Below, one piece after another: positions 8,239 through 34,736 of a stretch of DNA of 64,000 nt. The stretch is taken from contig RPFO01000041.1 in assembly GCA_009746045.1 (NCBI GenBank), forward strand, positions 5,140,920-5,204,919, written 5' to 3'. Below the pieces are notes generated by a model. That model searched no databases and was not told where the DNA came from. It saw nothing but the letters and a program-made list of their open reading frames with translations. Each line of letters begins with the position of its first letter. The first letter of the stretch is position 1. The translations under genes were made by a program, and so were the position numbers. This stretch comes from Mesostigma viride. Its lineage: Eukaryota > Streptophyta > Mesostigmatophyceae > Mesostigmatales > Mesostigmataceae.

Positions 8239-9769
8239 TCAGCAGTCGTCGTCGTCGTCATCGTCATCGGCAAGGATGAGCGCTCGCTTCCGACGCCGGG
8301 AGGCGCCTGCGTTGTTGTTCTCCGCCACAACGTCGCTGGGTGGAACCATCTCGCGCAATCGAGCCTCGGCCAGGGTGATATCCGGCGCTTGCAACGCAGG
8401 GACGACCACACCGGGGCACCCGCAGATCTGTGCCTCCAGCTCGTGGAGAGGCACGCAAGAAACCGCGTCCTCCTCCCAACGGGCACCCCAGTACATGGCT
8501 ACCATGTCGTTTTGCGTGTCGACAACAGCGACACGACCATGGTACCTGCCGTCCCGGCTTTCGGTGCGACCGTCCGCGGATGTCACACGCTCCGACGCCC
8601 AATGACACACGACTTGCCCTACGAGGTTGCGGCTGCCACTCTTGACCTGCAGCGTTACGCCTTCCCAGCATGCCTTCGCCATGCCGACGATGCCCTTCGA
8701 GCATTCAGCATCTTGCCACTTCACGACCGGGTGTTCCGCGTCATAGGGCACCTCCTTCAGCGCCTTTAGGCACTCCTTGGTGAGCTTTTCGTTCGCACCC
8801 AAGGAGACTCCATGGGGCGGCTGACCTCGCTTGCCCACCACTTGTGTCAAGACGAGGTCTGAGGCGGTGATGATCACCGTGTGCGCCGCAGTGGTTGGCG
8901 GATGGGGCCATTGCGCAATGTCTGTATTCCACGGGTGCCACGTGTCATGCAAATGCTTAGCGCGGTATACAAAGAGCTCAATAGAAGGTTGGCCGCCATC
9001 CTCCTTCGCAACCACCTCCTTGATGATGCCAACGAGGACTGGAGTCCACGTGAGCTTCGAGTTGCAGAGAATACCAGCTGAAGGGTGCCAGTATAGAACA
9101 GCGGAGCCTTTCTCAACGCCTTGCATGCGCTTCAAGTAAGCGACCTTGGCTGCCATGGCCCTGTCTTCTGCCGCCCATTCCTGCTGTGTGTGGCCATCAT
9201 GACGAACTCGGTCTACCAGCGGGGTGACGCGCACCGCCTCTGCGTCGACCAACGCCATGAAGTGCTCTTCTTGCGTCGGTGGTGGTTCAGGCGCTGCATC
9301 GTGCTCACGCAGGGCGGAGATGTCCGCGCGAGATGGCCACGGCAAAGGGCGCCACTCCTCAGGCACCTCCTCAGGGGCATGTGGGACTTGACTTGCGAAA
9401 AAAGGCCTTGTTTGGCTTGATGGTGTCGGGCGGAAAGTACCACTGCCAGATGCCATGGGGCAACTTCTCGACCCTTGTTTTGATCGACTCCAGCTCCTTC
9501 CCCAGAAACTCCATGTTCAATGGTGCGAAGGCTGGGGTGTCCTGCAACATCGGAATGCGGTCTGGATCCACAAGTCGGACGCCAAACAGCGGCCGCCCCT
9601 CCGCATCAAACCTGTATGGCTGTGTCATCGCCTTCCCGCACCGTGGCGCGCCTTCCTGTCGAGTCCCCGCGGGCTGCCACGGCGTCTTTTGGGACTCCGT
9701 GGTCCGGTAGGACAACCAGGTCTCTGTGTTGCCCTGTACCTGGAAGAAGACGGCGTGGTGCACCTTCAT
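8239..9769 (-). CDS. Tudor-like protein with basic patch and acidic tail (one frameshift)
   Basis: About 509 residues if one base is removed from the A6 run at 9398-9403. Upstream of it the reading is MKVHHAVFF...KAFF, and the next frame continues ASQVPHAPEEVPEEW to the stop at 8239. Two beta-barrel-like segments are visible. The first, about 9120-8940, contains VLVGIIKEVV and a Trp-rich WHPWNTDIAQW. The second, 8625-8400, runs LVGQVVC ... RYHGRV ... MVAMYWG ... ICGCPGVVVP and resembles Tudor/agenet chromatin-reader modules. The end is SRRRKRALILA followed by eight Asp and Cys, so it is probably nuclear. A homologous C-terminal half is encoded at 34316-34736 in the other large element. The frameshift may be an assembly error or an early lesion. 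A start further upstream cannot be excluded, because the GC-rich repeat there is open. I cannot name a known family. Confidence 0.7.
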
Positions 9770-9784
9770 TGAGCGACCGCGTTT

Positions 9785-10795
9785 TTCAGGCACCGGCTGT
9801 GCCGCTCCGCCGCTCCGCCGCTCCGCCGCCCGCCGGCTGCGCCGCCGGCCCGCCGCGCGCCGGCTGCCCCGCCCCGTAGCCCGTCGACAGGCTGCCCCGC
9901 CCCGCCGCATGCCAGCTGCGCCGGCCCGCCGCCCACGCGCGCCGGCAGCGCCGTTGGCCCCCCGCGCGCCGACGGCCCTGCCCCGCCGCCCGTTGACAGC
10001 CCCGCCCCGCCGCATGCCAGCTGCGCCGGCCCGCCGCCCATGCGCGCCGGCAGCGCCGCTGGCCCCCGCGCGCCGACGGCCCTGCCCCGCCGCCCGTCGA
10101 CTGCCCCGCCCCGCCGCCCGTCGACAGCCCTGCCCCGCCGCATGCAGGCTGCGCCGCCGCTGCCACCTCGCTGCGCGCTGGCTGCGCCACCTCGCCGCCC
10201 GCCGACGGCGCCGCCCCGCCGCGCACCGGCTGCCCCGCCCCGCCGCCTGTCGACTGCCCCGCCCCGCCGCATGCCAGCTGCGCCGGCCCGCCGCCCACGC
10301 GCGCCGGCAGCGCCGCTGGCCCCCCGCGCGCTGACGGCCCTGCCCCGCCGCCCGTCGACTGCCCCGCCCCGCCGCCCGTCGACAGCCCCGACCCACCGCA
10401 TGCCAGGTGCGCCGGCCCGCCGCCCGCGCGCGCCGGCAGCGCCGCTGGCCCCCCGCGCGCCGACGGCCCTGCCCCGCCGCCCGTCGACAGCCCTGCCCCG
10501 CGCCCGTCGACAGCCCCGCCCCGCCGCATGCCAGCTGCGCCGGCCCGCTGCCCACGCGCGCCGGCAGCGCCGCTGGCCCTGCCCCGCCGCCCGTCGACTG
10601 CCCCGCCCCGCCGCCCGTCGACAGCCCTGCCCCGCCGCATGCCAGGTGCGCCGGCCCGCCGCCCGCGCGCACCGGCAGCGCCGCTGGCCCCCGCGCGCCG
10701 ACGGCCCTGCCCCGCCGCCCGTCGACAGCCCCGCCCCGCCGCATGCCAGCTGCGCCGGCCGGCCGCCCATGCGCGCCATGCGCTTCGCAGGTCCA
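9785..10795. repeat. GC-rich minisatellite, about 1 kb
   Basis: Degenerate tandem units built from CCCCGCCGC, CCGTCGACAG, CATGCCAGCTGCG and GGCAGCGCCGCTGGCCC. All frames on both strands are largely open, which is a composition effect. It lies just upstream of the leftward Tudor-like gene and may hold its promoter or an intron. Confidence 0.85.
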
Positions 10796-11878
10796 TTGGG
10801 ATCATGAGGCCTGCGCAAATCTCACCTCGGAGGCCCGTGCTACTTCTAGTAAGATGCTTGCATTTTCAATGCGTCACCTATATGCAGGCATAGAGGGTGG
10901 TACATGGCGCTAGACTCATCAAGGGATAGGAGCCATGCCCTCAGCAATTACTCACCTCCTGGCCCTTGCTGTTGCGGTCTCGGATGAAGATGATGGTCTA
11001 CACGCCGCCGCATGCAAACAAGGAATGAGAGACAAAGCCGTGCGAGGCCAATATGGGCACAGTGAGAGAAACAAGTCGACGCGAACCTACATCACGAGTG
11101 TCAGCGAAGGGGACCCATGGGAGAAGTCTCCCTCCCATGGTATCATTCACGGACACACGCAGCGGCCATGGGAACAGCCAAAACAGCAGGTTCACACACG
11201 CAAGGGCAACGACCTGCAGTGCCTGACCAGCATGTCGGTCAGTTGTGATTGGCAAGGCAGAGCCACACACACCAGGTACACGCTGCATGGGCAGGGAAGA
11301 CGCTCTTACATGAGAAAAAGCGAGGAAACGTGCGCGAGAAGGATATTAAGAGCGATCCGCGCTAGAAGGATGCTACAATAGCATCATATATTCAAGAATT
11401 AGCAAAGAAAGATGTAGAAAAGAGACAAAAGAAAGAAATACGAGAGAAAGCAAAGACAGGGAGCTGCCAAACAGGGCAGACAAAAGGTTACGAGCGGCAA
11501 GAGTTGTGAACGCTGCACTTGATTGCTTTCTCTGACTTGTCAACTGCGAAGAGTGACTGACTTACCTCTCTGGAAATGGTATGCTCAGCATCCCATGGTA
11601 ATGAAATGGTGAGCTATGCTGTCAGACATGCCTATATAACATAGCTACCCTAGGGTCCTAATACAAAACTAGAAATCAAACCATACCGTGAGTTTCCCGG
11701 CTCGCACGGCCTCCTCCCTTTGTGCCGACGCCTGCAAACACAACGGGCCGTGGAGGAGGGTGGAAAGGTGGGCAAGTGTGGAGGAGTTTGGGGGGGACCG
11801 GGTTGAGCAGCGGTGGGGGAAAGATGTGCCGGTCATGATGTTGTCAACTACAGCTGTTGTATCGTGATTCACCTTCAA
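10796..11878. other. Unassigned segment of large DNA element 1
   Basis: About 1.1 kb without a recognisable gene. A 148-codon rightward frame (10935-11381) and a leftward 96-codon frame overlap each other here. Neither shows a motif, and I do not call them. Confidence 0.4.
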
Positions 11879-12162
11879 TAAGTCTACTGTTCTACATCCG
11901 GTGGTGGATGGACACAAGCAATAAAGGCCCCGCCCACAACTCAGATTTCTTTAGAAAATCTACTGATCTACATTCGATGGCGCCTTCACAGAAGCAGGAA
12001 ACTCCGCCCACCGGTCAAATGTGACGCCCAACAAAGCCCCAACTTATTTCTTCAAGAAGTATACTGTTTTACATCCGGTAGTGCTTGGACAGAAGCAATA
12101 TGTAAAGCCCGCCCACAAATCGGATTTCTTTACGAAAAACCTGTTTTACATTCGATGGGGTC
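11879..12162. repeat. Diverged tandem duplication, about 100 bp, period about 178 bp
   Basis: Copy 1 (11879-11980) and copy 2 (12056-12162) share CTACATCCGGT or TTACATCCGGT, CCGCCCACAA, GATTTCTTTA and TACATTCGATGG in the same order. Confidence 0.7.
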
Positions 12163-12235
12163 TTGACAGATTCAAGCAGCAATACTCGTTTCTACCTGCG
12201 TGCGACTGCAGCGGCCGAGTGCTGCAACTTGCCTT

Positions 12236-13548
12236 CACGTCCCAGTCTTCACGTGTCAGTCCTGGTCTTCACGTCTTCACGTCTTCACGTCTTCACGTCT
12301 TCACGTCTTCACGTCTTCACGTCTTCACGACTTCACCTGAACTTGCGGCGTATCGTATCTTTGATACCTTGCATGCACGTCTTCACGTCTTCACGTCTTC
12401 ACCGCGTCTTCACCTGTCTTCACCACGTCTTCACGTCTTCGCGTCTTCACGTCTTCACGGCTTCACCTGAACACCTGAACTTCACCTGAACTTGCCGTAT
12501 CGTGTCTTCACGTCTTCACGTCTTCACGTCTTCACGTCTTCACGTCTTCACCGCGTCTTCACCTGTCTTCACCACGTCTTCACGGCTTCACGGCTTCACG
12601 TCTTCACGGCTTCACCTGAACACCTGAACTTCACCTGAACTTGCCGTATCGTGTCTTCACGTCTTCACGTCTTCACGTCTTCACGTCTTCACGTCTTCAC
12701 CGCGTCTTCACCTGTCTTCACCACGTCTTCACGCTTCACGTCTTCACGTCTTCACGGCTTCACCTGAACACCTGAACTTCACCTGAACTTGCCGTATCGT
12801 GTCTTCACGTCTTCACGTCTTCACGTCTTCACGTCTTCACGTCTTCACCGCGTCTTCACCTGTCTTCACCACGTCTTCACGGCTTCACGGCTTCACGTCT
12901 TCACGGCTTCACCTGAACACCTGAACTTCACCTGAACTTGCCGTATCGTGTCTTCACGTCTTCACGTCTTCACGTCTTCACGTCTTCACCGCGTCTTCAC
13001 CTGTCTTCACCACGTCTTCACGGCTTCACGTCTTCACGTCTTCACGGCTTCACCTGAACACCTGAACTTCACCTGAACTTGCCGTATCGTGTCTTCACGT
13101 CTTCACGTCTTCACGTCTTCACGTCTTCACGTCTTCACCGCGTCTTCACCTGTCTTCACCACGTCTTCACGGCTTCACGGCTTCACGTCTTCACGGCTTC
13201 ACCTGAACACCTGAACTTCACCTGAACTTGCCGTATCGTGTCTTCACGTCTTCACGTCTTCACGTCTTCACGTCTTCACGTCTTCACCGCGTCTTCACCT
13301 GTCTTCACCACGTCTTCACGGCTTCACGGCTTCACGTCTTCACGGCTTCACCTGAACACCTGAACTTCACCTGAACTTGCCGTATCGTGTCTTCACGTCT
13401 TCACGTCTTCACGTCTTCACGTCTTCACGTCTTCACCGCGTCTTCACCTGTCTTCACCACGTCTTCACGGCTTCACGGCTTCACGTCTTCACCGCGTCTT
13501 CACCTGTCTTCACCACGTCTTCACGGCTTCACCTGAACACCTGAACTT
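12236..13548. repeat. CTTCACGT minisatellite with ~148-bp higher-order unit
   Basis: The basic unit is TTCACGTC. It is organised in a larger unit of about 148 bp marked by ACTTGCCGTATCGTGTCTTC at about 12493, 12640, 12790, 12940, 13080, 13230 and 13378, with an ACCTGAACACCTGAACTTC block before each. Non-coding in appearance; open frames across it are incidental. Confidence 0.9.
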
Positions 13549-13790
13549 TGCGTATCGTATCTTTCATACATTGCATCATTTGCATGCCTTGGAGCTGCAC
13601 GTCTTCAAGCAGTGTCACCCAGTTCCCGCTTGATTCAAATGCACTTCGCGCTTGAATTCGTGACTTCGCCCCGCTCAAGGTGGAAAGAATGATGGGCACT
13701 AGCCACGGGAACTATGCCCGATGCTGATAGCCGAAGCGATGACATGGACGAATTGATTGATTTGTGTTATGCCGGGGACGATTGTAGAAA

Positions 13791-14061
13791 ATGGGTGCTA
13801 GGAAAGAAATCTGGTGCCATGAAAGTAGATTTTTTGGCCGGTGCAAACCACCAATGCGCCGGCCGATGTGGCAAGGTCCTGCACGGCAGCCAGAGCGCAC
13901 CCAGCCAGAGCGTACCCAGCCGCTGCCGCCGCCGACCCCCGTACTGGTGGGCGTGGAACAGACGATGAGAGAGATGCAACGAGCTATGGAGAACCAAAGC
14001 AAGAAGGTTGAAGAGCTTGGTTTGCAGCTGCGTCAAGAGGTGCAGAAACAAGTGGTCCAGC

Positions 14062-14100
<39 letters not shown>

Positions 14101-14137
14101 TGCAGCAGCAACTGCAGCAGCAACTGCAGCAACAACT

Positions 14138-14206
<69 letters not shown>

Positions 14207-16255
14207 CTTCAGTTCCCGCAGGCAGCGTCGGCAATGTCGCAGTTTCCACAGGCATTCAATGTCGGCACTGCAGCAGTTTTCGCAGGGACCGTCGGCAGCA
14301 GAGCAGTTCCCGCAGGGATCATCGGTGGTGCAGCAGTTCTTTGTGAGTCATTCGTGTAGTGTTGAGTGGGTGGGGGGGGGGGGGGGGGGGGGTGTAGGGG
14401 GGTTTGACTGTGTGACTGCGTGGCTGCTTGGCTGGAAAGGAGGGTGCGTGGCTGTGTGGCTGCGTGGCTGCGCTGCTGCGTGGCTGCGTGGCTGCTTGGC
14501 TGGAAAGGAGGGTGCGTGGCTGTGTGGCTGCGTGGCTGCGCTGCTGCGTGGCTGCGTGGCTGCGCTGCTGCGTGGCTGCGTGGCTGCGTGGCTGCGTGGC
14601 TGCGTGGCTGTGTGGCTGCGTGGCTGCGTGGCTGCGTGGCTGCGTGGCTGGAAAGGAGGGTGCGTGGCTGTGTGGCTGCGTGGCTGCGCTGCTGCGTGGC
14701 TGCGTGGCTGCGTGGCTGCTTGGCTGGAAAGGAGGGTGCGTGGCTGTGTGGCTGCGTGGCTGCGCTGCTGCGTGGCTGCGTGGCTGCGTGGCTGCGTGGC
14801 TGCGTGGCTGCGTAGCTGCGTGGCTGGAAAGGAGGGTGCGTGGCTGTGTGGCTGCGTGGCTGCGCTGCTGCGTGGCTGCGTGGCTGCGCTGCTGCGTGGC
14901 TGCGTGGCTGCGTGGCTGTGTGGCTGCGTGGCTGCGCTGCTGCGTGGCTGCGTGGCTGCGTGGCTGCTTGGCTGGAAAGGAGGGTGCGTGGCTGTGTGGC
15001 TGCGTGGCTGCGCTGCTGCGTGGCTGCGTGGCTGCTTGGCTGGAAAGGAGGGTGCGTGGCTGTGTGGCTGCGTGGCTGCGCTGCTGCGTGGCTGCGTGGC
15101 TGCGTGGCTGCGTGGCTGGAAAGGAGGGTGCGTGGCTGTGTGGCTGCGTGGCTGCGCTGCTGCGTGGCTGCGTGGCTGCGTGGCTGCGTGGCTGCGCTGC
15201 TGCGTGGCTGCGTGGCTGCGTGGCTGTGTGGCTGCGTGGCTGCGTGGCTGCGCTGCTGCGTGGCTGCGTGGCTGCGTGGCTGCGTGGCTGCGTGGCTGCT
15301 TGGCTGGAAAGGAGGGTGCGTGGCTGTGTGGCTGCGTGGCTGCGCTGCTGCGTGGCTGCGTGGCTGCGTGGCTGGAAAGGAGGGTGCGTGGCTGTGTGGC
15401 TGCGTGGCTGCGCTGCTGCGTGGCTGCGTGGCTGCGTGGCTGCGTGGCTGCTTGGCTGGAAAGGAGGGTGCGTGGCTGTGTGGCTGCGTAGCTGCGCTGC
15501 TGCGTGGCTGCGTGGCTGCGTGGCTGCGTGGCTGCGTGGCTGCGTGGCTGCGTGGCTGCGTGGCTGCGTGGCTGCGTGGCTGCGTGGCTGCGTGGCTGCG
15601 TGGCTGCGTGGCTGCGTGGCTGCGTGGCTGCGTGGCTGGAAAGGAGGGTGCGTGGCTGTGTGGCTGCGTGGCTGCGTGGCTGCGTGGCTGCGTGGCTGCG
15701 TGGCTGCGTGGCTGCTTGGCTGGAAAGGAGGGTGCGTGGCTGTGTGGCTGCGTAGCTGCGCTGCTGCGTGGCTGCGTGGCTGCGTGGCTGCGTGGCTGCG
15801 TGGCTGCGTGGCTGCGTGGCTGCGTGGCTGCGTGGCTGCGTGGCTGCGTGGCTGCGTGGCTGGAAAGGAGGGTGCGTGGCTGTGTGGCTGCGTGGCTGCG
15901 CTGCTGCGTGGCTGCGTGGCTGCGTGGCTGCGTGGCTGGCTGGGGGGGGGGTGGGTGCCGGGTGCGTGGATGCGTGGATGTGTGGCTGGGTGGGTGCGTC
16001 ACTGCGTGGCTGGCTGGCTCTGTGGCTGCGTGGGCGGCTGGATGGCCGGGTCAGCGTGGCTTCGTGTTCAATGGGATGCTAATATGTTGTTGCCTTTGGA
16101 TGCCACAGTTCATGGATTCTTTTGTTCACATGCAGGTGCTGCCGTCTTCCCCATCGACGTCGTCAAGACCGATGTCGCCAAGAAGGATGATGCAATCACT
16201 CTCGGCCATGTTTAACTCATGTGGGCCTTCATGGCCATACGGGAAATATTATTGA
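13791..16255 (+). CDS. Two-exon polyglutamine protein; intron filled by minisatellite
   Basis: Exon 1 (to 14342) encodes a charged stretch predicted to coil (TMREMQRAMENQSKKVEELG), then a Gln tract of about 45 residues with a few Leu, then a Ser/Gln-rich segment ending SSVVQQFF. It stops at a consensus donor GTGAGT (14343). Exon 2 (16136-16255) follows the acceptor TTTTGTTCACATGCAG and encodes VLPSSPSTSS...GKYY before the stop. The join is phase 0 and keeps the Gln frame. The N-terminus is unclear: an ATG at 13714 in another frame encodes a natural-looking segment with HQCAGRCGK, so a frameshift or small intron near 13890 is likely. Function unknown. It lies inside large DNA element 1 and points away from the Tudor-like gene. 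Confidence 0.55.
14064..14206 (+). repeat. CAG trinucleotide tract in exon 1
   Basis: About 48 CAG codons with a few CTG and CAA interruptions (blocks of GCAACTGCA). It encodes the polyglutamine run. Confidence 0.95.
14405..16035. repeat. TGCGTGGC minisatellite inside an intron
   Basis: About 1.6 kb of TGCGTGGC units with variant blocks: GCTGCGCTGCTGCG, and GGCTGGAAAGGAGGGTGCG recurring roughly every 60-150 bp. A G tract lies just before it (about 14370-14398). It fills most of the intron 14343-16135. Confidence 0.9.
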
Positions 16256-16731
16256 ATCATTTCTTTGACACTGAGTTGGCACTACGCAACACCTTTGATG
16301 CACATGAGTGCAGGGCGCATGTGTTGAAACCATGCAACCATGGCGATCCCTCAAAAAGTTTGGTTATGTAATAAGTGACACAATTATTCCGGACGTATGA
16401 TGGCCCAACGTCCTGTAAGGTTGAGTTGTCTTGGAGGAGGAGCGTGATGACCGCGGAAGCCGCGTGGGTGTCTGTAGTGCTATATCTTGAAGATGTACGG
16501 TCTTGGAAGAGTTATGGTCTTGGAATCATATAATAATGAGCTTGGAATAAAGTTGCGGGCAGCCTTCAATTGGCATATGTTGTCTCATTGCGTTAATGGG
16601 TCAATTGTCTTAGTTTATATAATGTATATCTTGGGAAACTCATTGCTTCAATAAAATGCATGCTAGGCGCAATCAACCCCCACAAACACATCTGAAAACT
16701 GCACAGTGCATCAAATGTATCCTAGACAAAA

Positions 16732-16761
16732 AAATGTATCCTAATCCGGTAAAACCACCCA
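16732..16761 (-). repeat. Right TIR of large DNA element 1
   Basis: Reverse complement is identical to 6936-6965. Confidence 0.9.
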
Positions 16762-16800
16762 CAATTTGTTACGTCCGTCTGAAAGGGCCGGCCCGTAACA
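16762..16800 (-). repeat. LTR 2 (E2), right terminal part
   Basis: Contains TTGTTACG and ends CCCGTAACA, matching the terminal part of LTR 1 (GTTACGCCC ... GGGCCGTAACA). It continues LTR 2 after the DNA element. The next base begins LINE A sequence (GCCATGCCCACTGC), so E2 itself was inserted into a LINE A copy. Confidence 0.8.
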
Positions 16801-18325
16801 GCCATGCCCACTGCAGACCGGCGTCTGGCAGGGTTGCGTCCTGTCGCCGTACCTGTTCATTATTGTAGTGGATTATGTTATGCGCCAGGCACGTGCTCGC
16901 TTTGCTAGCATTGCAGGCCGTGCCCCTGGCCTAGCGATCACGAACGAGCTTGGAGAAGGGGGGCCGACTAACAAGCAGAATTTACTAGCTGACCTCATTT
17001 ATGCCGACGACATCACGCTCATCGAGAAGCCGCAGTCTGCCCAACTTTGGCTGGACTGCCTGGCGCTCGAGGCTCGGGCGGTTGGTCTAGTAGAAATCAG
17101 CCCCAAAACGGAGGCCCTGGCCCTCGGCATGGCAGGGCCCCCACCCACACTCCGCCTCTTAGACGACACCAAGGTCAACTACCCTCCTTCAGGCCGCTTC
17201 AAGCTGCTCCGCAGTTGGCTTCCCGACTGCGAGGACAGCATGACGACACGGATCGGCATGGCGTGGGCGCACCTCCATGACCACCGCCGCTGGTGGAGCA
17301 ATCCCGCCCTACCCCGGATCGTCAAGCGTGACCGGTCTTCAAGGTCGTCATTCTGACGATCCTGACCTACGGCGCCGAGACCTGGACACTGACGCAGGAG
17401 CTGGAGCAACGACTCGACGGCACCGTCACCAATTAATTAATTAATTAGACTCGTGCTCCCGTTGGGGAGTCACGGAGCATTAACCCCGATGGATGGATGG
17501 ATGGGTGCAAGCAGTCCTACCGGTCTAATCTATCTACATCGGCTACATGCTACATCTATCTAACAGCATTCTAACTACAACATCTATCTAGGCAGCCGCA
17601 CGCTGCCCTAGGGGAGCTATCTGGCGTGCCTCCCACGGGATTGCACACGCGGGCGCTTCCCCACTGGGGGGGGCTCGTTGTCCTCTATGACCTGGGCCCA
17701 CTTGGCCTTGTCCATCATCTTCTTCCAAATCACAGAGAGGCCTACCGTCACCAAGATGCTGCGCAAGGCCCTATCCCCTTTGGTTTGCACATTAGTAATG
17801 AGGATTTGTACGCTGATTTGCCCTATGTTTCCCACATTATTAGGCACAGGCGCCTGGGCCTAGCCGGGCACCTGGCCGGCACAGATCAGGTAGACACATC
17901 GGATAGACTAGCTGGCACCAAGCCCGCCCAGCCTGGGCGATATGTCCTCACCAGGCTCACCTGGCGTGCCCCAGGCCGCGCGCGGCAGGGCCGCCACCCG
18001 TGGACTTTTCAGTTTTCGTGATAGACTCGGCATGGACATGTGCTACACTAGACGTGACGGGCTCACACCCGGGCAGCCTCCTGGTTTGTCTGTAATATGG
18101 AGGCAGATGGTACGCAAGGATAGATGGCAAGTTGTGATGAAGGAGACCACCCCCAAGTCTGTGGGGGCTCCGCGTGTGACCGCGTATGGCATTCATAGCG
18201 ATTCGGGCCGCGGTGCCCACATGCACCCCTGTAACTAGGACCTAGATAGCTTACACCATCCATTCCATCCCATGTTCCCCTCCCATCGAGGACGCTCACG
18301 TGACGCAGTCACGTGTCTATTAATT
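16801..18325 (+). mobile_element. LINE family A, 3' half (decayed), interrupted by a LINE D insertion
   Basis: Near-identical to 49136-50335 of the longer copy. It starts at the LTR 2 junction with GCCATGCCCACTGC, and continues through the RT YADD box (about 17006), the C-terminal GLHISNEDLYADLPYVSH region, the stop near 18237, the CACGTGACGCAGTCACGTG hairpin and a (TTAA)n tail. Coding is broken by small indels (an extra GTA near 17090, a lost CT near 17333, extra bases near 17955 and 18010) and by the insertion at 17431-17743. This is a dead copy that received E2. Confidence 0.9.
17431..17743 (-). mobile_element. LINE D 3' fragment, 313 bp, 9-bp target duplication
   Basis: Flanked by ACCGTCACC at 17422-17430 and 17744-17752. 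Reversed, it encodes a LINE C-terminus (LSVIWKKMMDKAKWAQVIED ... PVGKRP), followed by a UTR with CCATCCATCC, the CTCCCCAACGGGAG stem-loop and a (TTAA)n tail at the left edge. The protein end resembles the C-termini of LINE A and B (W..M..K.RW ... PVG.P), so the families are related. Confidence 0.9.
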
Positions 18326-18429
18326 AATTAATTAATTCATTCCACGACATTGGAACACCATGCGCCCAGGAGTTAATACAGCTAGTTAACTATTAATTGG
18401 CTAATGTACGAAAGAGACAACTAATGTAC

Positions 18430-18545
18430 GCGTAACTGCATCACGTGAGCATAAGTCCTCAGGGAAATGATTATTGGATGGCCAGGGCCGCGGTGGATGG
18501 TGTAGCTATCTATTTAGTTACACCAGTTTTAGATCCTAGTTAAAA
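18430..18545 (-). mobile_element. LINE A 3'-end relic
   Basis: Reverse complement of the LINE A 3' UTR: CTGCATCACGTGAGCATAAGTCCTCA, then GGATGGTGTAGCTATCTA. Diverged. The 100 bp to its left (18326-18429) shows nothing I can assign. Confidence 0.6.
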
Positions 18546-22876: not shown

Positions 22877-23454
22877 TACATCCTTTCCCGTTCATCACAA
22901 CCCTCAAACTTGTACTTCTGGACTCGCCAAATCAATCAACGAGCGTCGCCCATAAAAAAGCACGACAAGGTATGACACTCCCAACATCCGACTTCAACTG
23001 TAAAATGCACGATTCGGCAATCTTCAAAACATGAAAAATGTAGTCCTCCTTGACACTGTTCCCGATTAGGGATCACGCTATGGCTTCCAACATCGCAATG
23101 TGGTCCAGCCAGTTATCTGTGTAAGCTACACTCTCGCACAACTTAATTTGCGCGCCGACGGCACCCGCACCCGCCATCTCAACACATAGCAAGCACTTAG
23201 TATGGCAAGCGGATTATGGCCTTATCCACTTAATAGCCCGCCTCACCCTTCAAAAGTTTCATTACCGTCAATGTCTCGGGCTGCACATAACACAACAAAA
23301 ACACAGTCACGCATACCGTCGTCAAGCACCTGTAGTCTACGACGCGTCGCTCGAAAACATTTACAAAAAATGATGCAAAGCAACGGAGGCATTTCGAAAG
23401 TATTCGACGAATCAAGTACCCCCGCACAAAAGCATGTTTCACAACCTCGAATTG

Positions 23455-23995
23455 GGGAGGGGTCTCGCTGCAGCTAGACCCTTCCGTGAACGCAAAAAAT
23501 AAACATCGAATAAGTGGGAGGTCTTCCTGCAACTAGACCCCTCAAATCATACAAAGATGAAACATTGAAGTTGGGAGGGGTCTAGCTGCAGCTAGACCCT
23601 TACAGGAATGCGAAAAAACAACCAATAATTGGGAGGGTCTACCTGCAGCTAGACCCTTACATGCAATCAAAAAGGATGAAACCTTGGAAGTTGGGTGGGG
23701 TCTAGCTGCAGCTAGACCCTTACAGGAATGCGAAAAAACAACCAATAATTGGGAGGGTCTACCTGCAGCTAGACCCTTACATGCAATCAAAAAGGATGAA
23801 ACCAGGGAAGTTGGGAGGGGTCTAGCTGCAGCTAGACCCTTACAAGAATGCGAAAAAACAACCAATAATTGGGAGGGTCTACCTGCAGCTAGACCCTTAC
23901 ATGCAATCAAAAAGGATGAAACCTGGGAAGTTGGGAGGGGTCTAGCTGCAGCTAGACCCTTACAGGAATTCGAGAACTTTATCACAAATGAGTAA
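23455..23995. repeat. 120-bp tandem array, left arm of the foldback element
   Basis: Units start at about 23572, 23692, 23812 and 23932, plus degenerate outer units. Each contains the palindrome GGTCTAGCTGCAGCTAGACC and a half-related GGGTCTACCTGCAGCTAGAC separated by AAAAAACAACCAATAATTGG. The period is divisible by three, so frames stay open (repeating GLAAARPL), but I see no evidence of coding. Confidence 0.9.
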
Positions 23996-24029
23996 CATCG
24001 TCTCTCTGCAAAGAGACCCTTGCCAAACA

Positions 24030-25208
24030 TGCAAGGACTGGCGTGGGTGTGCTGGGTGGGATGCGTGGGTGTGGTGGGCATGTGTGCGTGGGTGTGGTGG
24101 TGGGCTAGCATGTGTGCGTGGGTGTGGTGGGTGGCTGGCATGCGTGCGTGGGTGTGGTGGGTGGGTGGCATGCGTGCGTGGGTGTGGTGGGTGCCTGGCA
24201 TGCGTGCATGGGTGTGATGGGTGGCTGGCCTGCGTGCGTGGGTGTGGTGGGTGGCTGGCATGCGTGCGTGAATGTGGTGGTGGGCTAGCATGCGCGCGTG
24301 GATGTGGTGGTGGGCTGGCCTGCGTGCGTGGGTGTCTGGGGTGGCTGGCATGCGTGCGTGGGTGTGGTGGGTGGCTGGCATGCGTGCGTGAATGTGGTGG
24401 TGGGCTAGCATGCGTGCGTGGGTGTGGTGGATGGCTGGCATGCGTGCGTGGGTGTGGTGAATGGCTGGCATGCATGTGTGGGTGTGGTGGTGGGCTAGCA
24501 TACGTGCGTGGGTGTCGCGGGTGGCTGGCATGCGTGCATGGGTGTGGTGGGTGGCATGCTTGCGTGCGTGGGTGTGGTGGATGGCTGCCATGCGTGCGTG
24601 GGTGTGGTGGATGCGTGCATGGGTGTGGTGGGTGGCTGGCATGCGTGCGTGGGTGTGGTGGATGCGTGGCATGCCTGTGTGGGTGTGGTGGTGGGCTGGC
24701 ATGCGTGCGTGTGGTGGTGGGCTGGCATGCATGCGTGGGGTGTGTGTGGTGGCTGGCAGGCCTGTGTGCGTGGGTGTGGTGGTGGATGCATGGCATGCGT
24801 GCGTGGGTGTGGTGGATGGCTGGCATGCGTGCGTGGGTGTGGTGGTGGGCTGGCATGCGTGCGTGGGTGTGTTGGATGGGTAGCATGCGTGCGTGGGTGT
24901 GGTGGGTGGCTGGCCTGCGTGCGTGGGTGTGGTGGATGGCTGGCTTGCGTGCGTGGGTGTGGTGGATGTGTGCGTGGGTGTGGTGGGTGGCTGGCATACG
25001 TGCGTGGGTGTGGTGGGTGGCTGGCATGCGTGCATGGGTGTGGTGGGTGGCTGGCATGCGTGCGTGGGTGTGGTGGGTGGCTGGCATGCGTGCGTGGGTG
25101 TGTTGGATGGGTGGCATGCGTGCGTGGGTGTGTTGGATGGGTGGCATGCGTGCGTGGGTGTGTCGGATGGGTGGCATGTGTGCGTGGGTGTGGTGGTGGA
25201 TGCGTGGC
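24030..25208. repeat. 30-bp minisatellite, left arm
   Basis: Units of GTGCGTGGGTGTGGTGGGTG plus GCTGGCATGC, about 39 copies with scattered variants. Confidence 0.95.
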
Positions 25209-26821
25209 ATGCGGGAAGTGACGCAACGAATGTTATGGCCGAGCAAACTGGGCCTCCTTGCCCGTGGCTGACGGAAATACAATTCAAACAGACGGCCTCA
25301 AAGCATAGTAATGAATGCAACGACGTTCAAAAGCGTCCCAGATCGACATGAAAAGAAACCGAGCGCTAAAGCCGGTAGAATACATGCATGGCGGGACATG
25401 ATGTATTGGAAAAGCCTGGTTGCCTCCGTATCCGCTCCTGACGTGAACAAATGGAAAGAGACCGCCTGGAAGCCAACATATGCATGCGCCACTGTTCCGA
25501 AGCCCAGCAAACACGAACAGAGCTTACCCAGGCGTCATTCCGGGTGCCACCATCTTACCCTGACAGTCGTCATCCTAGCAACCTCTAGCAGAGCTTACGG
25601 CCCCCACAGTCCAGGAGTTTCCATGACCCATCATAACGTACCTCAGCATCGGTGACTTTAAAACCACGCTTCTAAGCGTACAAGAATACCACTAGCTTTC
25701 CTGTAACAAACATGACCAACTGAGCACGTCGCTGTCGACAGCCATACCATTTGTCCAGCGGCCATTTGCGACGCGATGCAATTGATGTGCATTATTTTGC
25801 TGGGCCCGTGGGCCACATCGCCGTCAACGGCTCAACGCTGCGCTCTGGTGGGTCTTCACGTGTGGACGTCAGCCTTCAAGTGTCGTCCAATCTGCTTTCT
25901 CGGTTTCGAAAAATTTGGTCGAGACGATTGCCATCGGCGCCGCGCTTCCACTTTCCGGCGACTGCGAGGATGCCACGTTACCGTTTTCTACCCTTTTACA
26001 GCCGTACGCTTTGCGACCGTTTTCATTACTAGTGTTCCTTTGGAATACGACATTATTAGTAACCGAGCAAGAAGATTGGACGACACTCGAGGGCTGACGG
26101 TTCACACGTAAAAACTCAAAGCGCAGCGTTGAGCCGTTGACGGCGATGATTGTGGCCCACGGGCCCAACAAAATGATGCACATCACAATTCTAACAAAAA
26201 CCAGCAGCCTACCTATTACCTACCCAACCCTAATTGCATCACGCTGCAAATGGCCACGGGATTACGGTATGGCTGTCGATAGGAAAGTGTTCAGTTCGTC
26301 ATGCCGTTGGGAAAGCTAGCTCTCTTTTTGTGCGCTTAGGAGCGCGGTTTTAAAATCACCGATGCTTAGGTACGTAATGATGGGTCATGCAAGCTCCTGG
26401 ACTGTGGGGGCCGTAAGCTCTTGGAGAGGTTGCTGGGATGACGACTGTCAGGGTAAGACGGTGGCACCCGGAATGACGCCTGGGTAAGCTGCATTTTTGT
26501 TTTCTGGGCTTTGGAACGGTGTCGCCTGCATATGTTGGCTTCCAGGCGGTCTCTTTCCATTTGTTCACGTCAGGAGCGGATACGAAGGCAACCAGGCTTT
26601 TCCAATACATCATGCCCCGCCATGCATATATTCCGATATGCATATATTCCACTGTATTTTGCGCTCGGTTTCGTTTTATTTCGATTTGGGACGCTTTTGA
26701 ACGTCGTTGCATGCATTACCATGCTTCGAGGCCGTCTGTTTGAGGTGTGTTTCCGTCAGCAACGGGAAAGGAGGCCCAGTTTGCTCGGCCATAACATTCG
26801 TTGCGTCACTTCCCGCAAGGC
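25209..26821. repeat. Inner arms and loop of the foldback element
   Basis: 25209-25908 is mirrored by 26063-26821: CAACGAATGTTATGGCC, GAACAAATGGAAAGAGACC, CAGTCGTCATCC, GGCCCGTGGGCCACA and CGCCGTCAACGGCTCAACGC each occur inverted on the other side. The loop 25909-26062 is unique. Arms differ by scattered substitutions, so they are not a recent duplication. Confidence 0.8.
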
Positions 26822-27175
26822 AGGTATGACTCCCGCTCTTTGTTTATGTATTTCGATTATGGACAACGCCTTTTTATTCTCTTACCAGCAACCGGGCAGT
26901 GTTTTTCCGTTGTGTTTCGGTCAGCAACGCTTACCGAGCATCTCTGGTGCGTTATTCCCTGTCACGCAGATATTCCTTCGTTCTTCTAACTGGGGTCTGT
27001 TGTATTTCGATTGTAAGTTTTATGAAATTCCCATCAACTGATTTGTTGGCATATTTTGGCTGTTGCACTTACTGCATGCAACTTTGGATAGGCAACGATT
27101 AATAGCTATTATATATTATGTTTGGTAACTATATGTCCTTTTTAAAACTATATTATTCTCAGTATATAAACGCCA
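26822..27175. other. Extra 350 bp in the right foldback arm
   Basis: On the left arm the minisatellite directly adjoins AGTGACGCAACG. On the right, 350 bp intervene, A/T-rich and containing TCAGCAACG motifs like the neighbouring arm. It may be an insertion or a segment lost on the left. No gene seen. Confidence 0.5.
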
Positions 27176-28295
27176 GCCCCCCCAACACACCCAGGCACGC
27201 ATGCCACCCATCCAACACACCCACGCACGCATGCCAGCCACCCACCACACCCACACACGCATGCCAGCCACCCACCACACCCACGCACGCATGCCAGCCA
27301 CCCACCACCCCACGCACGCATGCCAGCCACCCACCACACCCACGCACGCATGCCAGCCACCCACCACACCCACGCACGCATGCCAGCCACCCACCACACC
27401 CACGCACGCATGCCAGCCCACCACCACACCCACACACGCATGCCAGCCATCCATTACACCCATGCACGCATGCCAGCCATCCAACACACCCACGCGCGCA
27501 TGCCAGCCCACCACCACACCCACGCACGCATGCCAGCCCAACACCACATCCACGCATGCATGCCAGCCACCCACGCACGCATGCCAGCCACCCACCACAC
27601 CCATGCACGCATGCCACCCATCCACCACACCCACGCACGCATGCCAGCCATCCACCACACCCACGCACGCATGCCAGCCCACCACCACACCCACGCACGC
27701 ATGCTAGCCCACCACCACATTCACGCACGCATCCCAGCCACCCACCACAACCAGGCACGCATGCCAGGCACCCAACACACCCACGCACACATGCCAGGCA
27801 CCCAACACATCCACTCACGCATGCCAGCCCACCACCACACTCACGCACGCATGCTAGCCCACCCGCGCACGCATGCCAGCCATCCACCGCACCCATGCAC
27901 GCATGCCACGCATCCACCACACCCACGCACGCATGCCAGCCATCCACCACACCCACGCACGCATGCCAGCCCACCACCACACCCACGCACGCATGCTAGC
28001 CCACCACCACATTCACGCACGCATGCCAGCCACCCACCACAACCAGGCACGCATGCCAGGCACCCACCACACCCACGCACACATGCCAGGCACCCACCAC
28101 ATCCACGCACGCATGCCAGCCCACCACCACACTCACGCACGCATGCTAGCCCACCCGCGCACGCATGCCAGCCTTCCACCGCACCCACGCACGCATGCCA
28201 CGCATCCACCACACCCACGCACGCCATGGCAGCCACCCACCACACGCACGCATCCACCACACCCACGCACGCATGCGACACACCCATGCCAGTCC
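27176..28295. repeat. 30-bp minisatellite, right arm (inverted)
   Basis: Reverse complement of the left array (CACGCACGCATGCCAGCC units). It contains an internal duplication: the block 27640-27860 recurs at about 27940-28160 with small changes. Confidence 0.95.
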
Positions 28296-28359
28296 TCACA
28301 TGATTGGATTAGGTCTCTCTTCAGATCTGCTCCCATGAATTTGTGATAGAATTCTTGCC

Positions 28360-29005
28360 TTCGTTGAAGGGTCTACCTGCAGAGAGACCCCTCCCAACTT
28401 CCAAGGTTTCATCCTTTTTGATTGCTTGTAAGGGTCTAGCTGCAGGTAGACCCTCCCAATTATTGGTTGTTTTTTCGCATTCCTGTAAGGGTCTAGCTGC
28501 AGCTAGACCCCACCCAACTTCCAAGGTTTCATCCTTTTTGATTGCATGTAAGGGTCTAGCTGCAGGTAGACCCTCCCAATTATTGGTTGTTTTTTCGCAT
28601 TCCTGTAAGGGTCTAGCTGCAGCTAGACCCCTCCCAACTTCCAAGGTTTCATCCTTTTTGATTGCATGTAAGGGTCTAGCTGCAGGTAGACCCTCCCAAT
28701 TATTGGTTGTTTTTTCGCATTCCTGTAAGGGTCTAGCTGCAGCTAGACCCCTCCCAACTTCCAAGGTTTCATCCTTTTTGATTGCATGTAAGGGTATAGC
28801 TGCAGGTAGACCCTCCCAATTATTGGTTGTTTTTTCGCATTCCTGTAAGGGTCTAGCTGCAGCTAGACCCCTCCCAACTTCAATGTTTCATCTTTGTATG
28901 ATTTGAGGGGTCTAGCTGCAGGAAGACCTCCCAGTTATTCGATGTTTATTTTTTGCGTTCACGGAAGGGTCTAGCTGCAGCGAGACCCCTCCCAACTTGG
29001 AGGTT
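28360..29005. repeat. 120-bp tandem array, right arm (inverted)
   Basis: Reverse complement of the array at 23455-23995, with about five units. The degenerate outer units match the left outer units. Confidence 0.9.
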
Positions 29006-29115
29006 GCGAAAAAATTGTTTCTCAGGTCTACATGATTCTTACGGATACTTTCGAAATTGCTCCATGGCTTTGTATCATTTGCTGCAGATGTCTTGGAACG
29101 ATGCGTCCTATTATT

Positions 29116-29694: not shown

Positions 29695-29900
29695 AGTGTG
29701 ATGGGATGGATGGCGCTTATTATCGAAGTCCTAGTGACAGGGGTATGTGGGCACCACGGCCCGAATCTGGGGTACTGTGAATGCCTCCCACCGGCTTGGG
29801 GGTGTCACACGCGGAGCCCCCACTGGCTTGGGGGTGGTCTCCTTCATTACTAATTGCCACCTATCCTTGCGAACAATTGGCCCCCAGATTACAGACACAT
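29695..29900 (-). mobile_element. LINE A 3'-end fragment
   Basis: Reverse complement of the end of LINE A: GTCCTAGTGACAGGGGTATG, CACCACGGCCCGAAT, ACGCGGAGCCCCCAC, GGGGGTGGTCTCCTTCAT, CTATCCTTGCG. Diverged. 29901-30578 shows no gene. Confidence 0.75.
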
Positions 29901-30578
29901 CGATGGATTACGACACTACTTTGCAATACTCGTCGCAAATGAGGGACGTCTTGAAGTCACATGTGACGGGATGGGCCGCGGCAACAGGGGTTATAATTTT
30001 GCTGCTGTTGTTCGAAGGGGCGCACTTTGACATGTATTTTCTACACTTTGACATGTATGCTCGGTTTCTTTCAAAGCACACCTAGTCAATGTTTGCGGTG
30101 CATGGTTCACGCACGAGATGAAGGAGCAAGAGGTGGCCCGGAACGAGGGTGAGTAAAGGTGAGTCGTTTTTTGTTGAATTGAGGGAATTACTATTCTATG
30201 CGGTCAAGATAGAGCCATCAGGTTTCTTCCTAGTATTCTGATCCTAGTATTGTTGGTGATGGTTGTTGTGAAGCCTCTTTTTGCAGCGCGACCTTGATTT
30301 TATTATTTAAGTTATGTAAATGATATAGGCAACGGACGAACTGAAGTGCACGCGATAGCAGGAACGGTAGTAGTCTGAAAGACTTCGACAATTTCCGTCA
30401 TCAGGTTGTCCCCGCACCTTTTTGTAGGCACATTGCCTTGTCAATTAGTACATGCAAATATATATACGATTCCATCAAACTTTTTTTAGAGTTTGTTGAT
30501 TCCCTGAATTGATAGTAAAAAGCTGCTAGCAGGCCATGGAGACGAATTGTATTAGTGCAGGCCACGCACGAATTTTGA

Positions 30579-30860
30579 AGTGGCCCGCCGAGCGGCTGTA
30601 CAATTTTTCCCAGTGAGCGCGCTGCCAAGTGTACTTGTGGGCAAATTTTTAAGTGCCCCGTCACTTCGAGGTATTAAAAATTAGGCTACGGTACGAATTC
30701 AGCGAATTTCAGAGAATTTTCAGTCGAACGAAAGGAAGTGACGCCAACTGCCAAAAAGTTTCTGTTACGAATTTTCTAGTCCAACACTTGGCGCAAAAGG
30801 AAGTGACGGCCAAAACGTTTCCGCTACAAAAATTTCAGTCCCTGAGGCATGGGACAAAGT
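30579..30860 (+). mobile_element. Truncated copy of the AAGTGGCC-ended MITE
   Basis: Starts AAGTGGCCCGCCGAGCGGCT and follows 46734-46960 closely through CAATTTTTCCCAGTGAGCG and the GGAAGTGACG repeats. It then diverges, and no matching right end is found. Up to 31212 only purine-rich sequence remains. Confidence 0.8.
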
Positions 30861-31212
30861 GCACGCGACAGCAGGAAAAGGTCAAGTTAAATAAAACTGG
30901 CGCAAAGTCCGGCCGGCGGAAAATTCGCTCGGCTGCAAAAAATTCGGCAAGAATTTCGGCGCAATGTCCGGTTTTCGGACGATTGAAACTAGCGTTTTTT
31001 TCTTGCAAAAATCTACCCCATTCCGCGTGGGACCACCCAGAGCATGGATGGTTAGGGGGAAAGAAAAAACGAAACAAAAAAACATAAAGTCAAAAGAAAA
31101 GGTTAAAGCGATAATAGTAATAATAAAGAAGAATGGGGGGGGGGGGGGGGAGGGGAAAGAAGAAGAATAAACAATGGGGTACGTAAATCGAGGTCATTGC
31201 TGGGCCCTATAT

Positions 31213-31607
31213 TTGTAATATATTTAAAAAAAATTAAATTATAACATGCCTCCGTGGGGAGGTCATGTAGCACATATTTCATGATGGATGGGGTGGAGGA
31301 AGCCGCGTGATCGAACTATCCTAACTCTATCTAGAAAATCCTAACTACACTACTCATCAAAACGCCTCCTCCGCTTGGGGGGAGGTGGCTTGCCCACAGG
31401 GTCGGGCGTGTGCGCCTTGACAATCTTCTTCCACCGCGTCTTGTCCTGCATGGCAGTCCAAAGACGGGAGAGAGAGTGGATGCGGTGCTCAAACTGGGCT
31501 GGGACCACTAGGTCGTCCAGCAACATCTGAACGTAGTTGGTGACAGGTTTCCCTACCCTTTTGGGAATGTCCGCGGGGCCAGGCCAGGTCAGAATGTGCC
31601 GCCCTGG
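31213..31607 (-). mobile_element. LINE B 3' end, left of large DNA element 2
   Basis: (TTTAA)n tail, UTR and C-terminal coding region (KRRRR ... PVGKPPPP ... LWTAMQDKTRW ... LLDDLVVP), interrupted at 31607 by the 10.7-kb element. It continues at 42304. Confidence 0.85.
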
Positions 31608-31637
31608 AGGGGATTCATAAGTGTTTGCTCAATTTCA
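31608..31637 (+). repeat. Left TIR of large DNA element 2
   Basis: Matches the reverse complement of 42274-42303 at 29 of 30 positions. Confidence 0.9.
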
Positions 31638-31694
31638 TAAATTTTACTCAATTTTTCCACATGTGATTAAATCCTTATATTTGTCAATAAAGCA

Positions 31695-33110
31695 GGGGTC
31701 ATCCAGCCTTCAGACCATGAAAATAGACCACCCACAAAAATTGGGCTCATTCTGAGCTCAAATGGTGACATGTGACAGCATACATGTGCAGTTTTTCGTC
31801 ATTTTCCCCCTTTTCTTACATGAAACAAATATGAATAGTGAACAAATGAACTCATATCAGGATGGGTTCTTGCAGGCAGCATCTAGACCATGAAAATAGA
31901 CCACCCACAAAAATTGGGCTCATTCTGAGCTCAAATGGTGACATGTGACAGCATACATGTGCAGTTTTTCGTCATTTTCCCCCTTTTCTTACATGAAACA
32001 AATATGAACAGTGAACAAATGAACTCATATCAGGATGGGTTCTTGCAGGCAGCATCTAGACCATGAAAATAGACCACCCACAAAAGTTGGGCTCATTCTG
32101 AGCTCAAATGGTGACATGTGACCGCATACATGTGCAGTTTTTCGTCATTTTCCCCCTTTTCTTACATGAAACAAATATGAATAGTGAACAAATGAACTCA
32201 TATCAGGCTGGGTTCTTGCAGGCAGCATCTAGACCATGAAAATAGACCACCCACAAAAATTGGGCTCATTCTGAGCTCAAATGGTGACATGTGACAGCAT
32301 ACATGTGCAGTTTTTCGTCATTTTCCCCCTTTTCTTACATGAAACAAATATGAACAGTGAACAAATGAACTCATATCAGGCTGGGTTCTTGCAGGCAGCA
32401 TCTAGACCATGAAAATAGACCACTCACAAAAATTGGGCTCATTCTGAGCTCAAATGGTGACATGTGACAGCATACATGTGCAGTTTTTCGTCATTTTCCC
32501 CCTTTTCTTACATGAAACAAATATGAACAGTGAACAAATGAACTCATATCAGGCTGGATTCTTGCAGGCAGCATCTAGACCATGAAAATAGACCACCCAC
32601 AAAAATTGGGCTCATTCTGAGCTCAAATGGTGACATGTGACAGCATACATGTGCAGTTTTTCGTCATTTTCCCCCTTTTCTTACATGAAACAAATATGAA
32701 CAGTGAACAAATGAACTCATATCAGGCTGGGTTCTTGCAGGCAGCATTTAGACCATGAAAATAGACCACCCACAAAAATTGGGCTCATTCTGAGCTCAAA
32801 TGGTGACATGTGACAGCATACATGTGCAGTTTTTCGTCATTTTCCCCCTTTTCTTACATGAAACAAATATGAACAGTAAACAAATGAACTCATTTCAGGC
32901 TGGATTCTTGCAGGCAGCATCTAGACCATGAAAATAGACCACCCACAAAAATTGGGCTCATTCTGAGCTCAAATGGTGACACGTGACAGCATACATGTGC
33001 AGTTTTTCGTCATTTTCCCCCTTTTCTTACATGAAACAAATATGAATATTGAACAAATGAACTCAGATCAGGCTGGAAACTTGTAAGCAGCATGTAGACC
33101 ATCAAAATAG
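31695..33110 (+). repeat. 173-bp satellite array, left
   Basis: About eight units marked by AGACCATGAAAATAGACCAC at about 31710, 31886, 32059, 32232, 32405, 32578, 32751 and 32926, with a degenerate last unit near 33097. Each unit also contains GAGCTCAAATGGTGACATGT and TTACATGAAACAAATATGAA. Homogeneous. Confidence 0.95.
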
Positions 33111-33278
33111 ACTGTTTACAGCTCAAAAGGTGACAAATGAAAGGAAAACAATGCAGTTTGATGCCATTGCCACTGTTCTCTTGAATAAAACATTTTTGTG
33201 CGACCAAATGAAATTCATGGGCATTCATTGACAATCCTCGAGGTTCGTGCAGTCTGAATTTCGTACAACGGTAGTATG

Positions 33279-34262
33279 AAGTTCAGACTGGACGGGCAGT
33301 CTCGGGTCTTCGATGAATGAATTCCAGTGAATGCAAGATGAATTGCCGAGACCGACCTGTTAGCAAGGAAATTCGTCCTTTTCGTATGTTCAGACTGGAC
33401 GGGCAGTCTCGGGGCTTCGATGAGTGAATTCCAGTGAATGCAAGATGAATTGCCGAGACCGACCTGTTAGCAAGGAAATTCAAGTCCTTTTCGTATGTTC
33501 AGACTGGACGGGCAGTCTCGGGGCTTCGATGAGTGAATTCCAGTGAATGCAAGATGAATTGCCGAGACCGACCTGTTAGCAAGGAAATTCAAGTCCTTTT
33601 CGTATGTTCAGACTGGACGGGCAGTCTCGGGGCTTCGATGAGTGAATTCCAGTGAATGCAAGATGAATTGCCGAGACCGACCTGTTAGCAAGGAAATTCA
33701 AGTCCTTTTCGTATGTTCAGACTGGACGGGCAGTCTCGGGGCTTCGATGAGTGAATTCCAGTGAATGCAAGATGAATTGCCGAGACCGACCTGTTAGCAA
33801 GGAAATTCAAGTCCTTTTCGTATGTTCAGACTGGACGGGCAGTCTCGGGGCTTCGATGAGTGAATTCCAGTGAATGCAAGATGAATTGCCGAGACCGACC
33901 TGTTAGCAAGGAAATTCAAGTCCTTTTCGTATGTTCAGACTGGACGGGCAGTCTCGGGGCTTCGATGAGTGAATTCCAGTGAATGCAAGATGAATTGCCG
34001 AGACCGACCTGTTAGCAAGGAAATTCAAGTCCTTTTCGTATGTTCAGACTGGACGGGCAGTCTCGGGGCTTCGATGAGTGAATTCCAGTGAATGCAAGAT
34101 GAATTGCCGAGACCGACCTGTTAGCAAGGAAATTCAAGTCCTTTTCGTATGTTCAGACTGGACGGGCAGTCTCGGGGCTTCGATGAATGAATTCCAGTGA
34201 ATGCAAGATGAATTGCCGAGACCGACCTGTTAGCAAGGAAATTCAAGTCCTTTTCGTATGTG
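33279..34262 (+). repeat. 109-bp tandem array
   Basis: Nine near-identical units beginning TTCAGACTGGACGGGCAGTC and ending AAGTCCTTTTCGTATG, period 109 bp. It ends immediately before the Tudor-like gene remnant and may have replaced its 5' half. Confidence 0.95.
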
Positions 34263-34315
34263 CGCGAAACATGAGGGGTGGGAAAACGGAATAAGCACAG
34301 AAAACGGAATCAGCG

Positions 34316-34736
34316 ATGGCGGAGAAGACGGCGATGGCACTTTTCAAATCGCATGTCATGGACGTGCACGAGCCGGAATGGTTGGTGGGGACCCCGGTAT
34401 GCAAGATATTTTCAGGCCCAAACTCAGGGGAGAAGCGGTATCATGCCCATGTGACGGCGTTTAATAAGGAGCACAACATGGTCCATGTGCTCTACACAGA
34501 CGGGGACGATGAAATAGTAGGGTTAGATGAGGTGCGAGCTGCGCTTTGCGCATGCCCAGGTGTAGAGTTACCCAATCTGCCACCCGACTCGACTGCGCGA
34601 GGTTAGGCGGAGATAGTAGAGTGCGTTCGGATCGAAGCAGGTCGCACACCGGGGCACGGCTAGCAAGCAAGCGAAGGCGACCCCGCGCCACAAGCGCCGC
34701 CCTCCCCACATAATTGATGACTCAGACTCAGACTAG
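34316..34736 (+). pseudogene. C-terminal half of a Tudor-like protein, frameshifted
   Basis: The first frame (96 codons from ATG 34316) reads LVGTPVC ... RYHAHV ... HNMVHVLYTDGDDEIVGL ... LCACPGVELP. It aligns with LVGQVVC ... RYHGRV ... ICGCPGVVVP of the gene at 8239-9769. After DST a one-base shift continues RLREV, where the other protein has RLREM. After two stops the same frame ends HKRRPPHIIDDSDSD and a stop at 34734. This mirrors the RRRKRALILA plus acidic tail of the homologue. The N-terminal half is missing. Evidently a relic of the same protein, possibly with an intron across the stops. Confidence 0.7.

Follow-up and report, generated by a model that had tools for sequence, protein, structure and literature searches.

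A Tudor-like protein in two transposons of Mesostigma viride as the probable C-terminal remnant of a DUF7869 transposase family

Chromoviruses are retrotransposons in which a chromodomain is fused C-terminally to the DDE integrase and used for targeting. RAG1-RAG2 and ProtoRAG are DNA elements of the Transib type with terminal inverted repeats (TIRs) and 5-bp target duplications; their convergent genes encode a DDE recombinase and a protein with a PHD-type reader. The subject here is a pair of TIR elements in a 64,000-nucleotide stretch of the Mesostigma viride genome (the window, G000:C1579:5140920-5204919), each with a Tudor-like protein that ends in an acidic tail. Very probably, both proteins are C-terminal remnants of one DUF7869 transposase family whose DUF7869 region has been lost, and the elements carrying them are derivatives moved in trans. 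The long terminal repeat (LTR) retrotransposon Gypsy-10_Ec32 of Ectocarpus carries a Tudor domain and is described as the first transposable element so reported to its authors’ knowledge (PMC12477816). It is the only earlier Tudor-bearing transposable element among the literature matches listed; in the open-access literature on Tudor or PHD domains with transposons, none of the matches listed concerned a Tudor domain fused to a protein of a DNA transposon, and no report on DUF7869 was found. The report on the M. viride NIES-296 genome gives 66% repeats, with LTR elements as the biggest share (PMC6947507).

The two window proteins belong to the same family, as an earlier note on this DNA had claimed. 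P0001, the main frame of copy 1 in element 1, and the copy 2 piece in element 2 share 33% identity over 84 residues (BLASTP, E 2e-8), and a tblastn search of the whole window with P0001, at E up to 1, returned only P0001 itself and copy 2 (E 7e-5). The likeness continues past the frameshift in copy 2, whose match to the relative L031 spans 34313-34630 and resumes at 34635-34733. Both proteins end in acidic tails: SRRRKRALILA, eight Asp and Cys in P0001, and DSDSD in copy 2. The 509-residue protein described for element 1 consists of frames of 132 and 425 residues, which overlap (9516-9374 region) in different reading frames and are joined via a frame change that is identical in 11 of the 11 copies examined (the window copy and K1-K10).

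The DUF7869 region, missing from both window copies, is present in relatives elsewhere in the 440-Mb assembly (2,243 contigs). When the genome was searched with the copy 2 piece (150 of 700 candidates scored), the Tudor matches formed near-identical, near-83%, near-76% and weaker groups, one of the weaker groups having open frames of 827-1,508 residues. Further Tudor-bearing groups, near 38% and 76%, hold frames of 181-450 residues or a repeated broken piece. The 1,508-residue frame of L029 contains DUF7869 at residues 462-603 (E 4.1e-14); next comes a stretch that aligns with P0001 at 46% identity over 395 residues, and last an Asp-rich tail. L031, a 78% relative, has the same domain order in a frame of 2,726 residues (DUF7869 E 1.6e-14). 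Within L031 731-8908 (minus strand), dozens of copies of a 21-residue unit lie between DUF7869 and the Tudor-like region, where the related gene model P0005 has a single one; this points to in-frame minisatellite expansion. Searching with the L029 DUF7869 region (106 of 342 candidates scored) yielded 12 matches near 100%, seven full-length at 61% and about 72 at 55-56%. Some 38 kb upstream of the window, at G000:C1579:5102127-5103275, sits a copy from the 55% group that bears DUF7869.

L036, a member of the 55% group, has a single uninterrupted frame of 1,729 residues. This frame runs from DUF7869 (E 1.4e-15) through a repetitive linker into 511 residues beginning MKVHHAVFF, in which 121 of the first 124 residues are identical to the window protein and 371 of 382 match from VPHAPEEV on. 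The Tudor-like domain lies at about residues 1590-1690 of L036. The Tudor-like region is collinear with DUF7869 in four long frames (L029, L031, L032 and L036), and all six relatives scanned (these four, L033 and P0005) resemble DUF7869 proteins, with PF25273 scores of 52.2-58.5 bits against a cut-off of 26. When a two-sequence alignment was used for a wider search of proteins, the only matches were a gene model of Mesostigma and an entry of Prorocentrum lima. The P. lima eukprot entry P0006 is 100% identical to the L036 protein over the aligned length, which suggests cross-contamination of that dataset.

These frames bear on whether the Tudor-like protein is the free-standing accessory component proposed by the earlier note. 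A separate accessory gene, acquired independently or shared by two element families, would agree with the solitary position of the protein in both window elements, with their different TIRs, and with the lack of any Pfam match at E 0.01 in P0001 and nine other element 1 frames of at least 120 residues, the part of the frames that was scanned. Against this stand the collinear DUF7869 in L029, L031, L032 and L036 and the traces of the fuller arrangement in both window elements, and the uninterrupted L036 frame largely refutes it, leaving it very improbable. A separate cargo gene was likewise dropped once the long DUF7869-Tudor frames turned up. The proposal of one Tudor-like protein family inside TIR elements stands; in place of the accessory role, the protein forms the C-terminal portion of a transposase-like protein with DUF7869. 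The initial interpretation is thus partly supported. A captured host gene was also rejected: a protein search with P0001 at E 0.001, of limited sensitivity, returned two clusters, both of M. viride gene models, and so no host homologue was seen.

The deletion in element 1 can be placed by comparison with L033, a member of the 55% group with a 1,219-residue frame containing DUF7869 (E 8.8e-16). L033 1-1816, with repeat pieces to 2539, aligns with window 8976-10777, and L033 4530-5701 aligns with window 11873-12976. Because alignment flanks the gap on both sides, about 2.0 kb of N-terminal and DUF7869 code in L033 has no counterpart in element 1. L034 and L035 complete this L033 copy, which is 11.2 kb long and flanked by TTA at either end; its left TIR is the same, and its right TIR has a single mismatch. 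The L033 frame stops at 1,219 residues and that of L036 continues for 510 more, so changes in the linker array, which corresponds to the window minisatellite, probably shift the frame; a spliced linker may be an alternative account. The 1.1-kb filler at the deletion site has no match in window 16762-64000 or in L029-L036 at E 1e-3, and is possibly captured DNA.

Element 1 ends in GGGTGGTTTTACCGGATTAGGATACAT and its inverse. All ten other genomic copies start at window 6934-6937 and stop at 16760-16761 (aligned pieces of at least 300 nt, above 88% identity, near the diagonal), with copy lengths of 9,044-9,824 bp. Counting the window copy, 10 of 11 copies carry the 27-bp TIR without a mismatch at either end, and K3 has one mismatch in its right TIR; the protein lies between TIRs in all ten fetched copies, in agreement with the earlier claim. 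A 3-bp target duplication flanks 9 of the 12 copies compared (K2, K3, K4, K5, K6, K8, K9, K10 and a copy on C667; triplets TAC, TAC, TGG, TAG, ATG, AGA, TTT, TAA and TTA) and is missing at the window copy, K1 and K7. About 2.3 kb past the right end of K7 (position 18242 of the joined stretch L021-L022) lies a second forward TIR of element 1 type, perhaps of a neighbouring element.

Element 1 multiplied very recently, and shrunken derivatives lacking the enzyme core have spread widely through the genome. Mean pairwise substitution among 11 copies is 0.04% (2,842 columns) or 0.10% (1,288 columns), in a sample taken from matches with 100% protein identity, a choice that favours young copies. The genome search with P0001 gave 837 candidates, and all 99 that were scored lie near 100% identity, making the copy numbers lower bounds. 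Some truncated transposases act as repressors (e.g. P-element KP), and the truncated element 1 protein, if made from many copies, might itself be selected for repressing the full transposase or acting on it as a dominant negative. All 10 fetched copies and all 99 scored matches keep the 425-residue frame open, and a seven-member database cluster includes a partial gene model of P0001. At 0.04-0.10% divergence, however, the copies are too young for a signal of constraint, so the open frame says little, and the frame change severs P0001 from its upstream part; selection on the truncated protein is accordingly unlikely.

Element 2 has TIRs of the form GAGGGGATTCATA(A/G)GTGTTTGCTCAATTTCA, at about 31607 and 42304, which are unlike those of element 1, as had been stated before. 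From each end inward, a short TIR is followed by arrays of a 173-bp unit. Foldback-type elements have long inverted ends made of tandem subrepeats. Element 2 shares this feature, but its subrepeats lie inside a short TIR, and its DUF7869 relative L031 has the same arrays. Window 34313-34764 aligns with the Tudor-coding end of L031, and everything between this region and a scrap from the DKID side is gone. A reverse transcriptase frame (RVT_1, 36456-38702, minus strand) lies inside element 2.

The association between protein and termini was examined genome-wide with the terminal 100 bp of element 2, which gave 40 full-length matches among 151 first-look candidates. With the Tudor rows restricted to the groups near 100%, 83% and 76% (111 of 150; the 39 weaker rows left out), a Tudor match lies within 16 kb on the inner side of 31 of the 40 termini and on the outer side of three, all three on contig C2, where elements adjoin. 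The predicted location of genome matches within TIR elements is thus supported for termini of element 2 type. Nine of the 40 have no Tudor match and may be deleted or unscored copies. Among the 31, nine Tudor pieces of the 76% group, one of the 100% group and one of the 83% group are oriented opposite to the queried end.

DUF7869 looks like a DDE catalytic domain, a prediction made from its motifs. Acidic motifs (DKxD, LQxDGGSENRN and GHTHxDxDQKFG) are conserved among the relatives, and the conserved acidic residues would be compatible with a DDE triad; in L036, the candidate catalytic residues are D387, D482, and D521 or D523. An AlphaFold model of P0005 from a four-sequence alignment has a predicted local distance difference test score (pLDDT) of 34, too low for a usable fold.

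The likeness of the C-terminal domain to Tudor families, suggested by the earlier note, is borne out in part. The PTM/DIR17-like Tudor (PF21743) is the sole Pfam family at E <0.001 for pieces of this domain, but its scores (23.5 bits for copy 2, 19.7 bits for L031) fall under the cut-off of 27.2, and P0001, L029, L032 and L036 gave no match to it in the Pfam scan. A plant Tudor bound to H3K4me1 heads the VIA-align listing for the domain. Of its 50 rows, 22 are Spindlin entries and a further 19 are of Tudor, PHF1/PHF19/MTF2, SMN, TDRD3 or PHF20 type, 41 in all; some of these regions are Tudor domains. Neither P0001 nor the copy 2 piece matched any sequence of the Protein Data Bank at E 1, and alignments A7 and A8 gave only chance-level matches. 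The domain could instead be an SH3-like barrel that, rather than reading histones, binds DNA, RNA or the transposase itself; the plant Tudor at the head of the structural listing, the preponderance of Spindlin and Tudor-type rows, and the sole Pfam family all count against this alternative and make it rather unlikely.

A second gene lies on the opposite strand. In L035, it is an 807-residue frame with PHD-finger-like Cys/His spacing, for which PF00628 scores 13.9 bits (E 0.056) on the whole frame and 16.2 bits (E 0.011) on a piece, against a cut-off of 24; L029-L030 hold a PHD-like Cys/His piece with a Gln-rich frame downstream. The arrangement fits a two-gene TIR transposon with a reader-ended transposase and deleted derivatives moved in trans. 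It resembles RAG1-RAG2 and ProtoRAG in that a TIR element carries a putative DDE enzyme gene beside a PHD-like second gene; unlike them, its second gene is divergent with a weak PHD match, and the putative transposase itself has the Tudor-like reader fused to it. As in chromodomain integrases, a reader-like domain is C-terminal on a putative DDE enzyme, but here the element is a DNA element and the domain is Tudor-like.

Inverted termini and a target duplication of fixed length (3 bp) are features shared with TIR cut-and-paste elements, the DUF7869 protein of the relatives being the candidate DDE transposase. CACTA/EnSpm TIRs start with CACTA, and PIF/Harbinger target duplications are TWA. Membership of both was rejected: the TIRs here start with GGGTGG or GAGTGG, and two of nine duplications fit TWA. 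A Gypsy LTR element with a Tudor domain was also rejected, the ends being TIRs rather than LTRs and the nine scanned element 1 frames beside P0001 having no Pfam match at E 0.01. Like Gypsy-10_Ec32 as reported (PMC12477816), the mobile element’s own protein appears to end in a Tudor-type reader, but that element is an LTR retrotransposon with a polyprotein, and the one described here is a DNA element that has TIRs and encodes a DUF7869 protein. A DNA transposon would thereby join the elements reported with a Tudor-type reader. DUF7869, to which Pfam assigns no function by name, gains a probable transposase role; here it stands in a TIR element with 3-bp duplications and in one frame with a Tudor-like domain.

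In the proposed mechanism, the full protein would comprise DUF7869, a variable repetitive linker (as in L036), the Tudor-like domain, a basic patch and the acidic tail, and would be encoded by TIR elements of the 11-kb class alongside the divergent PHD-like/Gln-rich gene. This transposase would act by binding the TIRs and transferring the element in cut-and-paste fashion, generating 3-bp target duplications; derivatives without the DUF7869 region but with termini, such as elements 1 and 2, would be mobilised in trans. The Tudor-like domain would most likely anchor the transposase at histone marks and so guide insertion or chromatin access, and may serve target choice or escape from silencing. 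The sequenced genome holds many near-identical insertions, whose sites can be set against chromatin maps to test whether histone marks direct target choice. It is plausible, if tentative, that the family forms an undescribed superfamily of eukaryotic DDE DNA transposons defined by DUF7869, with labour divided, as in RAG1/RAG2, between a Tudor-type reader on the transposase and a PHD-type reader on its partner. The two readers would choose insertion sites by histone mark, and the system would recently have driven a burst of deleted derivatives in this alga, a basal streptophyte.

Table 1. Features of elements 1 and 2 in the window
Feature	Position	Strand	Description
Element 1	6937..16760	.	9.8-kb TIR transposon, internal-deletion derivative without DUF7869 region; ends common to 10/10 copies
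Element 1 left TIR, GGGTGGTTTTACCGGATTAGGATACATTT	6937..6965	+	TIR comparison
Element 1 right TIR, inverted copy	16732..16760	-	TIR comparison
Copy 1 upstream frame, MKVHH...	9769-9374	minus	Open frame of 132 residues; upstream portion of the C-terminal region, read in a different frame from P0001
P0001	9516-8242	minus	425 residues; putative transposase C-terminal part: Tudor-like domain, basic patch, eight-Asp tail
GC-rich minisatellite	9800..10777	-	Repetitive linker within the putative transposase frame of L033 and L036
1.1-kb stretch absent from L033	10780..11872	.	Sits where L033 has ~2.0 kb of N-terminal and DUF7869 code
PHD-like/Gln-rich gene remnant	13693..14255	+	807-residue open frame in L035; window piece without Pfam match
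Element 2	31607..42304	.	~10.7-kb TIR element, internal-deletion derivative of L031 type; possible 3-bp CTG duplication
173-bp tandem array, left end	31704..33112	+	Also in L031
42-bp putative transposase-exon scrap	34258..34299	+	Matches L031 8225-8266, directly after DKID motif
Copy 2	34295-34733	plus	Open 34295-34603, then frame change
Copy 2 decayed C-terminal Tudor-like region	34313-34764	plus	Frame broken; adjoins 34258-34299 scrap
Inverted 173-bp tandem array, right end	40214..42222	-	

Other features of the window include a third, foldback-like inverted structure (23338-29110) with arms of ~640 nt, 93% alike and made of 120-bp repeats, and with inner inverted 30-bp arrays. Four RVT_1 frames were detected in the window and three placed; besides the one in element 2, these are 47504-50239 (plus strand) and 16799-17356 (plus strand, just under the cut-off), which are 97% alike over 632 nt. 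A zinc knuckle with a weak gag match (1315-3543, minus strand) likely marks an LTR element, and a Dynein light intermediate chain domain (DLIC, E 3e-30; 51284-54085, minus strand) probably belongs to a host gene.

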